The notes beneath the pieces were generated by a model. The model was not told the DNA's origin. It ran no database searches and worked only from the letters and a program-made list of their open reading frames with translations. The position numbers were made by a program, and so were the translations under genes. A DNA stretch of 64,000 nt from Taiwanofungus camphoratus (taxonomy: Eukaryota > Basidiomycota > Agaricomycetes > Polyporales > Taiwanofungaceae), in NCBI GenBank assembly GCA_003999685.1, contig CP021224.1, positions 930,001-994,000 on the forward strand, in the 5' to 3' direction. Below are positions 22,870 to 25,561 of the stretch, piece by piece. Position 1 is the stretch's first letter. Each line of letters begins with the position of its first letter.

Positions 22870-25561
22870 ATGGCCGAGAACCAACAAAGTGAAGGCAACG
22901 TGCAGAAGCAACAGCACTCACAGTCTGCAGTGTCGACAGCTGATAAGGCCGGTTCCAACATGAACGATGGAGGCAAGTCGTCGTCTCCTGCGCCTTCTCC
23001 CGGGTCGTCCAGCGGTAGGAGAGGACGGTCACGCACGCGCAATCCGCCGCGTACACGCTCCAGCGACAATCTTAGACGACGGTGAGCAGTTCTCATGTGG
23101 ACGACGGGATGTCATGGACCGATCCTATCCGTTTCAGAGGCTACCATACGCTCATATCGTCTTTCGGGAAAGCTTTCCACGTCGAGAAACGATGGAAGCT
23201 AATCCGAGAGATGGGATCCGGGGCGTACGGTTATGTGATGTCAGTCAGTCTCTTGGTGAGGTTCTTGCTCTATTCTGAGCATCAGCATCTTCTCCAGTTC
23301 TGCCGCGGACGAAATCTCGGGAGAACCGGTAGCAATCAAGATGGTCACTCGAGCGACTGAGAAGGTGCAACTGGCAAAACGTGCACTACGAGAAATCACA
23401 TTGCTACGACATTTTAATCACGAGAACATAACGGGCTTGATCGACGTTGACTGCACTTCCGATTTGAGTGAAATGCATGTGTTCAGTGTAATGGTGTTGT
23501 ATTCTATGGAAAACTGATATTGGCTCTAGATACATCTTCATGGAGGTTTGTTTATCTCGAGGCCACCTACTTCTGATCACTTACCACTTGGCTCCCATGA
23601 TATTTTAAGCCTATGGAAGGTCCGCTCCGTTTCCGATTCACTATTCCAATCTATTGAATCTTGTATTACATTGGCCCAGCCGATCTGCACCAAATAATCA
23701 AATCTGGCCAAGCGCTTACCAACGAACACGTCCAATATTTTGTGTATCAGATTCTTCGAGGTCATTTGTGTTGCCTGTATGCGCGACTTCCCTGTTGAGT
23801 TGATACCGAATTGCAGGGATGAAATATATCCACACCGCATCGGTCGTTCATCGTGACCTCAAACCAGGCAATCTTCTAGTGAACGCGGACTGCGAGTTGA
23901 AAATCTGTGATTTTGGGCTAGCCAGAGGATTTGACTCAGCACCCGACGAAAATACCACCAATATGACTGAGTATGTTGCTACAAGGTGGTATCGGGCCCC
24001 TGAAATCATGTTGGCATTCAGGTGAGACATAATTTTCGACACATTTCTGACTGAAAGTTGGGCTTATACCCGGCTCGAAGGGGTTACAACACAGCAAGTT
24101 GGTGTTCCAGACCATGATTTACAAGTTGGGCTTCATTGACTCCTTCCGCAGTTGACGTCTGGTCAATCGGGTGCATCTTTGCTGAGCTGATGCTTGGCAG
24201 GCCACTGTTCAAGGGAAAGGAGTGAGCACAAATGTTGTACGCTCCCTTTTTGATACCTGACAATTGTCGTCCTCAGCTACGGTCAGCCTGTCTTCCTCAT
24301 GTCCTGGACAAATCTGAATCATGGACGAGCGTCCGTTTGCAGTTGATCAACTGAACAAGATCCTCGAAGTCCTCGGTAAGCGGGCCCTGCTCAGTCTCAT
24401 AGGTGAATTGTTCTAATACATGCACAGGCACTCCGGATGACGAAGTCATCAAGCGAATAGGCAGCCAGAAGGTGCGTGAAGACCAGCGAGGTATTCCTCT
24501 TGGCTTGAATGAATTATAGGCACAAGCCTACATCCGGTCCCTGCCTTGGAACAGAACAGTGCCTTTTTCAAAATTGCTACCGCTCGCTGATCCACAAGGT
24601 TTGCTTCATTCGTTTACAGATTTCGTGCGCATGCCATTGATGTTTGCTCAATGCAGCCATCGACCTTCTGGCCCAAATGCTTACTTTCGACCCTGCAGCA
24701 CGCATCACGGTTTCGCAGGCATTGGAACATCCCTGGTTGGCATCGTACCACGACGTCAGTGACGAGCCCTCGAGCCCCGACAAGTTCGACCGGTGGCGCT
24801 CCATCGAGGCCCTGGAGACACTCGATCAGTTCAAGGAGGCGTTGTGGAACGAGATACAGGACTATCGCAGGGAGGTGCGGAGCGTGGGTGCCGACATCTT
24901 AGAACAATCACCCAGTCCGCCAGACCGTGTGGTGGAAGGAGTGGCAGAGAAGATGGAGCAGCTGCAGCCGCCAGGTGCCGAAGAGCCTCCTGCAAACCGC
25001 GTCTCGTCAACAGAGGCCGAGAGAGGGCCAGGGTGCCAGGACAAAAAGTCGAAGGAGCGCGTGGATGTCGTGGCGCAGACGCCAGAATCACACACGACGA
25101 AGACGCGGGCGGACCCGGTCGTGGCATATGCGAGGCGCTCGAGCATGTTCCTACCCTCGCGGACGAACTCCGTCTACTCGGCATACTCGGCATCGCAGCT
25201 CCGGCGGCAGGGCACACCCTCGCTCACGGACGGCGGCGCGTCGAGCGCGCAGGGCGGGAGCAGCGTCGCATTCCCCACAGGCCAGCAGGACAACTACGTC
25301 GTCCCCGCGCGCTCGCGCACTGCATCCATGTACGGTGGCGAGGCGGGACGCAAGCTCCTGCGGACGCTCTCGACGGTATCCATCTATGAGAGCGGGGAAG
25401 GTCTGGCTGGTGGACTTGCGGATATTGCGCCGATTGGAAAGTACATCGTCGAACGGGACGAAGGGCTCCCGTCTGAATTGCCACGCGAGCTCGAGTCACC
25501 GCCGCAGCCACGGCCTCAGGCAGTGCGTAAGGAGCAAGGAGACGGCGGAACAGAAAACTGA
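22870..25561 (+). CDS. SLT2: SLT2/MPK1-type cell-wall-integrity MAP kinase
   Basis: This is the terminal MAP kinase of the cell-wall-integrity cascade. ATG 22870 starts a Ser/Pro/Arg-rich extension of about 70 residues. The kinase then reads [20 protein letters not shown] (Gly-loop), [18 protein letters not shown] (ATP lysine), [20 protein letters not shown] (catalytic loop), [11 protein letters not shown] (DFG), and [20 protein letters not shown] (TEY activation loop). Then [39 protein letters not shown] and [20 protein letters not shown], then an acidic common-docking-like segment [16 protein letters not shown]-rich, Ser/Pro-rich tail runs from about 24900 to the stop at 25559-25561. Conserved kinase blocks require several tiny exons: 23530-23545 (16 nt), 23610-23619 (10 nt), 24081-24097 (17 nt) and 24277-24281 (5 nt). 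One intron (23475-23529) appears to start with GC. The antisense frames in 24800-25500 are shadows. Confidence 0.95.

Follow-up and report, generated by a model that had tools for sequence, protein, structure and literature searches.

Four predicted micro-exons in the kinase domain of a second SLT2-like MAP kinase gene of Taiwanofungus camphoratus

The window analysed here, a stretch of 64,000 nt from contig CP021224.1 of Taiwanofungus camphoratus, carries a gene that, judged by its sequence, encodes an intact second SLT2-like MAP kinase with long N- and C-terminal tails, and not the canonical SLT2. Four of its coding exons are predicted to be only 16, 10, 17 and 5 nt long. We consider it probable that these micro-exons are real, that they are constitutively included through intron definition, and that they were left behind by intron gain.

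The gene was modelled by hand as a single unit at 22870-25561 on the plus strand, with 14 exons that join into 1962 nt and encode 653 aa without an internal stop. Its exons, and the two introns around the shortest of them, are as follows (all on the plus strand).

Exon 1, 22870..23081, 212 nt: N-terminal extension, basic and rich in Ser, with the start codon; frame open and GT donor present in the hand model
Exon 2, 23138..23239, 102 nt: glycine loop GSGAYG; hand model and spliced alignment
Exon 3, 23298..23480, 183 nt: VAIK lysine through DLSEMHV, with GTTCAG as a weak donor; hand model and spliced alignment
Exon 4, micro-exon, 23530..23545, 16 nt: (V)YIFME; spliced alignment with four of four query proteins
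Exon 5, micro-exon, 23610..23619, 10 nt: PME(A); spliced alignment with four of four query proteins
Exon 6, 23680..23760, 81 nt: hand model and spliced alignment
Exon 7, 23817..24021, 205 nt: HRD, DFG, TEY activation loop and APE; hand model, spliced alignment and Pkinase match
Exon 8, micro-exon, 24081..24097, 17 nt: (R)GYNTA(I); spliced alignment with four of four query proteins
Exon 9, 24152..24221, 70 nt: ends in (D); hand model and spliced alignment
Intron 9, 24222..24276, 55 nt: GTGAGC...CAG; matches an intron of L003, the canonical SLT2, in position and phase
Exon 10, micro-exon, 24277..24281, 5 nt: CTACG, the middle of KDYVDQ; alignment, shuffle and pattern tests
Intron 10, 24282..24342, 61 nt: GTCAGC...CAG; no exact position match in seven aligned kinase genes
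Exon 11, 24343..24375, 33 nt: hand model and spliced alignment
Exon 12, 24428..24471, 44 nt: hand model and spliced alignment
Exon 13, 24520..24598, 79 nt: hand model and spliced alignment
Exon 14, 24657..25561, 905 nt: end of the kinase domain, long C-terminal tail and stop; hand model

All 13 introns are GT-AG and measure 48-64 nt, and the catalytic blocks VAIK, HRD, DFG, TEY and APE are intact in the translation. We take the 16-nt exon to be the end of beta-5 and the start of the hinge, and the 10-nt exon to be the hinge. The long C-terminal tail (24657-25561) contains Ser-rich stretches that by eye resemble phosphorylation sites. The positions proposed for the four micro-exons in the initial annotation are right, each with an AG before and a GT after it, and the introns flanking the 5-nt exon have the lengths (55 and 61 nt) and ends (GTGAGC/CAG and GTCAGC/CAG) given there. 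Its reading of the 16-nt exon as IYIFME stands for YIFME and fails for the first residue, which is V (GT joined to A), because the donor of exon 3 is at 23481.

For the spliced alignments we wrote a dynamic-programming aligner, which can join a codon over an intron in any of the three phases. It handles GT-AG introns no longer than 140 nt; an exon of 1 or 2 nt that falls within one codon is beyond its reach. With Mps1 alone as guide, under the GT/AG rule and without a splice-site model, its output for the domain was the hand model's set of 12 introns, with nothing added or missing, and human ERK5 as guide led to the same 12. The 11 inner exons, including the four micro-exons, were identical in all 16 runs, which combined four guides (Mps1, ERK5, Fus3 and ERK2), use or omission of a site matrix, and a lower limit on intron length of 40 or 25 nt; the matrix was trained on 20 introns from three other MAPK genes. 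The conserved kinase blocks for which the micro-exons had been proposed as necessary were thus recovered by alignment with four guide kinases.

Forbidding any one of the micro-exons lowers the alignment score with each guide. With Mps1, the score of 893 drops to 887, 882, 866 and 844 without the 16-, 10-, 17- and 5-nt exon, respectively. In a shuffle test with the same guide (intron interiors shuffled with dinucleotides preserved, 300 shuffles per interval), the real score was matched or exceeded once for the interval holding the 16- and 10-nt exons, twice for that of the 17-nt exon and never for that of the 5-nt exon; without the site matrix the counts were 3, 2 and 0 of 300. The shape that the 5-nt exon needs in order to supply D-Y-V, AG-YTAYG-GT, has a single match on both strands of the 64 kb, which is exactly exon 10. 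Of the four, the 5-nt exon is the best supported, and the alignments give the 16- and 10-nt exons, each considered by itself, modest support. All four are internal coding exons far below normal size and necessary for both frame and motif, which is what marks a fungal micro-exon. On this genomic evidence we regard them as real coding exons, as first observed.

The product has one Pfam domain as its best match, Pkinase (residues 91-380, E 1.9e-66), which is complete with catalytic lysine, HRD and DFG, and its TXY activation loop reads TEY. The best 60 of 280 PDB sequences are all MAP kinases, with Mps1 at 408 bits, ERK5 at about 355 and ERK1/2 at about 330, and the NCBIfam matches are prokaryotic kinase models only, as that library would give. 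The kinase domain is identical to Mps1 at 187 of 302 positions (62%), to L003 on contig 11 at 184 of 301 and to ERK5 at 163 of 301. The gene had been annotated as an SLT2-type MAP kinase. The place of the canonical SLT2 in this genome belongs to L003, which is identical to Mps1 at 228 of 302 positions as against 187 of 302. In an 11-row tree, drawn without one of the CDK rows (L011), L003 and Mps1 pair at 89/98, with the window gene outside them on a short end branch (0.2). A further split at 95/98 places the window gene with L003, Mps1 and the CDK outgroup, opposite the other seven rows, and has to be read with the length of the outgroup and the number of SLT2 rows, two, in mind. Since L003 is both closer to Mps1 and paired with it, the window gene is not the canonical SLT2. 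The open frame downstream of the L003 kinase domain reads FDFGFEEEDSIEGMKRLIVEEVHTFRAEVR. A 42-nt 'intron' that the aligner placed in L003 is rather an in-frame insert in the activation loop; this false intron was merged for the tree and for the count of 93 exons below, and left in the comparison of intron positions and in the count of 105 exons with its median intron length.

The other MAP kinases of the genome include three FUS3-type genes by identity to Fus3 (L002 185/301, L005 175/295, L017 186/302), and L013, whose activation loop reads TGY, which we take to mark HOG1, is called HOG1-like here. Two kinase fragments equal in size, C7:204641-205042 on the minus strand and C7:274308-274709 on the plus strand, score 58.5 bits each and contain one TGA each; some 70 kb from each other and opposite in strand, they are possibly an inverted duplication. 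The genome also gave five hydrophobin and two peroxidase matches beside the three FUS3-type kinases; together with its P450 matches, these would be in keeping with an agaricomycete. A search with the first 202 residues of the window kinase revealed no second copy of this N-terminal part in the genome; the four matches beyond its own gene are all kinase-domain stretches with 33-44% identity. In prokaryotic and viral contig collections, 8 and 1 stretches matched the search pattern, respectively, and none was a confirmed orthologue, an absence that says nothing because these collections consist of prokaryotes and viruses.

An exceptional status of the micro-exons is not borne out by the rest of the genome (33.2 Mb, 15 contigs). 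Forty models were aligned (25 and 15), and the main exon count was based on the 18 that reached 50% identity to their guide. These hold 105 internal exons, eight of them of 17 nt or less, with a median intron of 57 nt; a looser cut (35% identity, 31 models) gave 11 of 160. Comparable micro-exons are present in three actin copies and in beta-tubulin:

Actin L029, C2:25800-29500: 6-nt exon
Actin L030, C5:1641700-1645500: 6-nt exon
Actin L031, C9:1063700-1067500: 6-nt exon
Beta-tubulin L034, C14:485600-489500: 16-nt exon, encoding CGNQI and part of G

The internal actin exon (TTGCGG or TTGCAG) lies between introns of 51-54 nt and encodes F-A-G of KAGFAGDD across its junctions. Its removal drops the alignment scores from 1702 to 1673, 1551 to 1520 and 1559 to 1534, and removal of the tubulin exon drops the score from 1989 to 1933. 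Given such tiny exons in actin and tubulin, those of the kinase are probably just routinely spliced.

What sets the window gene apart is their number. It has four internal exons of 17 nt or less among 11, against 4 of 93 in the other 17 genes (Fisher p 0.004, or 0.001 with the three actin copies counted once), a comparison in which the gene had been picked for its micro-exons. If 12 introns are placed at random in 906 nt, the expected number of internal exons no longer than 17 nt is 2.25, with a probability of 0.15 for four or more and of 0.53 for a shortest exon of 5 nt or less; over the whole coding sequence the expectation is 1.29 and the probability of four or more is 0.024. For the other 17 genes 11.0 such exons are expected and four were observed, which suggests a mild avoidance of very short exons within this small gene set, one that the window gene does not show. 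The shortest exon of the canonical SLT2 is 31 nt in its domain model.

Intron positions, given as alignment column and phase, were compared with seven other kinase genes of the same genome. Exactly shared are 17.2 (with the HOG1-like gene and L017), 81.2 (HOG1-like), 224.2 (SLT2), 237.1 (L005), 253.0 (SLT2, HOG1-like and CDK L010) and 282.1 (HOG1-like and CDK L010), and the introns at 87.0, 90.1, 120.1, 195.2, 201.1 and 226.1 have no exact counterpart in the seven genes. Neither border of the 10- and 17-nt exons is shared with them. At the 16- and 5-nt exons one border is an old intron and the other possibly a newer one, since 81.2 and 224.2 are shared. The simplest reading of these positions would be intron gain in this line, with loss elsewhere as the alternative. 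The micro-exons would then be what remained when introns newly arose a few bases away from existing ones, in an order suggested by paralogues within one genome.

Under the reading that we prefer, all four micro-exons would be included constitutively. The spliceosome would pair both ends of each very short intron, so that exon length would hardly matter, and the two introns flanking a micro-exon would be removed in succession. Introns of 48-64 nt would allow direct pairing of their ends, and a 5-nt exon should therefore pose no problem of recognition. The genome encodes FF-domain stretches, as in Prp40, at two loci. Recognition through the short flanking introns, as suggested in the initial annotation, is in our judgement the best mechanism for introns of 48-64 nt and is consistent with the available text of PMC8378409. 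A natural test of intron definition is offered by the exons of 5 nt in the kinase and 6 nt in actin, whose flanking introns measure 51-61 nt.

Several junctions of the kinase gene score about background with the site matrix. Donor 23481 of exon 3 has 0.0 bits, donor 23761 has -0.5 and the acceptor before 23680 has 0.1, and the acceptor before 24081 reaches 2.1. The training donors average 6.9 bits (minimum 1.5) and the training acceptors 5.8 (minimum 2.5), with background means of 0.9 for GT and 1.8 for AG sites. A loose branch-site motif is present in 10 of the 13 introns, a count made without a control. Donors 23479 (3.3 bits) and 23488 (2.2) score above 23481, yet are out of frame with exon 4. 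Given the weak sites and these stronger, frame-breaking donors, some mis-splicing is likely on the site scores.

Such junctions would be compatible with a regulated off switch, in which condition-dependent skipping yields a truncated kinase, probably with mRNA decay, and splicing sets the kinase level. Each single skip does break the frame, as had been claimed, and truncates the protein to 174, 176, 270 or 299 aa (exons 4, 5, 8 and 10, respectively). The weak and competing donors at exon 3 also speak for a switch, as does the micro-exon switch of Trichoderma Xlr2, which depends on glucose according to the available part of PMC11121469. However, retention of each of the 13 introns likewise truncates the protein, to 71-406 aa, and truncation is therefore not special to the micro-exons. 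Actin and tubulin, which would hardly be switched off, have micro-exons too, and no unusual RNA fold was found in the four micro-exon intervals, which fold no better than their shuffles (z -0.47 to 0.60). We consider the switch unlikely. Decidedly unlikely is also a role of this Mpk2-like kinase as a sensor of splicing fidelity, in which heat or cell-wall stress would slow recognition of the weak junctions, namely donors 23481 and 23761 and the acceptor before 23680, so that skipping or retention turns the second kinase off. If this were true, the canonical SLT2 would be left working alone under stress.

It is very unlikely that the 5- and 17-nt exons are right and the interval of the 16- and 10-nt exons is spliced otherwise. 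The main candidate joins donor 23488 to 23610, leaving exon 4 unused. It is the one escape from skipping that keeps the frame, giving 650 aa with HVFSPMEADL; its donor outscores 23481, and with Mps1 the model scores only 6 units lower (887 against 893). However, it drops three residues of a segment that is present in Mps1, ERK5, Fus3 and ERK2, and forbidding exon 4 costs 6, 7, 4 and 10 units with these guides, respectively. Other donors for exon 3 were rejected: 23479, 23486, 23488 and 23494 break the frame with exon 4, and 23496 and 23499 keep the phase but would add residues absent from the guide kinases and shorten the intron to 34 and 31 nt, respectively, and they are outscored in the aligner runs that allow a minimum intron of 25 nt.

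That the micro-exon model has been forced onto a decaying gene is extremely unlikely: the weak splice sites at several junctions and the greater distance from Mps1 than that of the canonical SLT2 would fit a pseudogene, but the full 653-aa frame, the 13 GT-AG introns of 13, the intact catalytic blocks, a 62% identity to Mps1 with a short tree branch, as expected under constraint, and shuffles that seldom or never reach the real alignment score all argue against it.

The most useful by-product of the analysis is the second SLT2-like kinase itself. Gene finders with a minimum exon size would probably break this gene, and with it counts of fungal MAP kinases, and tiny exons may contribute to the mis-annotation of such kinase genes.

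Among the closest known counterparts is Mpk2 of Cryptococcus neoformans, a paralogue of Mpk1/SLT2 of 807 aa with extended N and C termini (PMC11253600). The window kinase, whose aligned domain spans about residues 89-390 of 653 aa with tails on both sides, may likewise belong to the SLT2 clade and stands beside a shorter canonical SLT2, L003. It is shorter than Mpk2, and the likeness is one of architecture; orthology between the two may be proposed on this analogy. In the available text of PMC11253600, two CWI MAP kinases are described as a distinctive feature of C. neoformans and the second as not observed outside it, a view against which the long-tailed kinase found here has to be set.

Among the titles and abstract openings of the literature covered, there was no description of micro-exons in a fungal SLT2/Mpk2 gene or a mushroom actin. 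Very short introns beside micro-exons are known from Caenorhabditis elegans, where, in the part of PMC8378409 available, two micro-exons independent of PRP-40 have flanking introns down to 49 nt and an upstream intron of 58 nt frees another from PRP-40, which its authors read as intron definition. Those are animal genes, and the likeness would be one of working and not of homology. In the white-rot basidiomycete Phanerochaete chrysosporium, the P450 genes combine tiny exons with short introns: the shortest exon is 6 bp, micro-exons of 2-10 codons occur in nearly a third and introns of 45-55 bp are frequent (PMC1184071, available text). The present case differs in that it concerns a signalling kinase, with a 5-nt exon and four micro-exons in one kinase domain. 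The T. camphoratus genome itself has 61 P450 matches at 1e-10 when each exon is counted separately. In the ascomycete Fusarium, CYP621A has an exon of one nucleotide, conserved in 20 orthologues (PMC12940212, available text); as in the kinase, a tiny exon between GT-AG introns was inferred from frame and conserved motif, whereas there it was confirmed by reads and here the exons are known from genomic sequence. Xlr2 of Trichoderma virens is likewise a case of a fungal micro-exon whose skipping alters the protein; there, inclusion is reported to depend on glucose (PMC11121469, available text). Tiny exons are thus already known in fungi from P450s, CYP621A and Xlr2, and the cluster in the kinase gene belongs with them.
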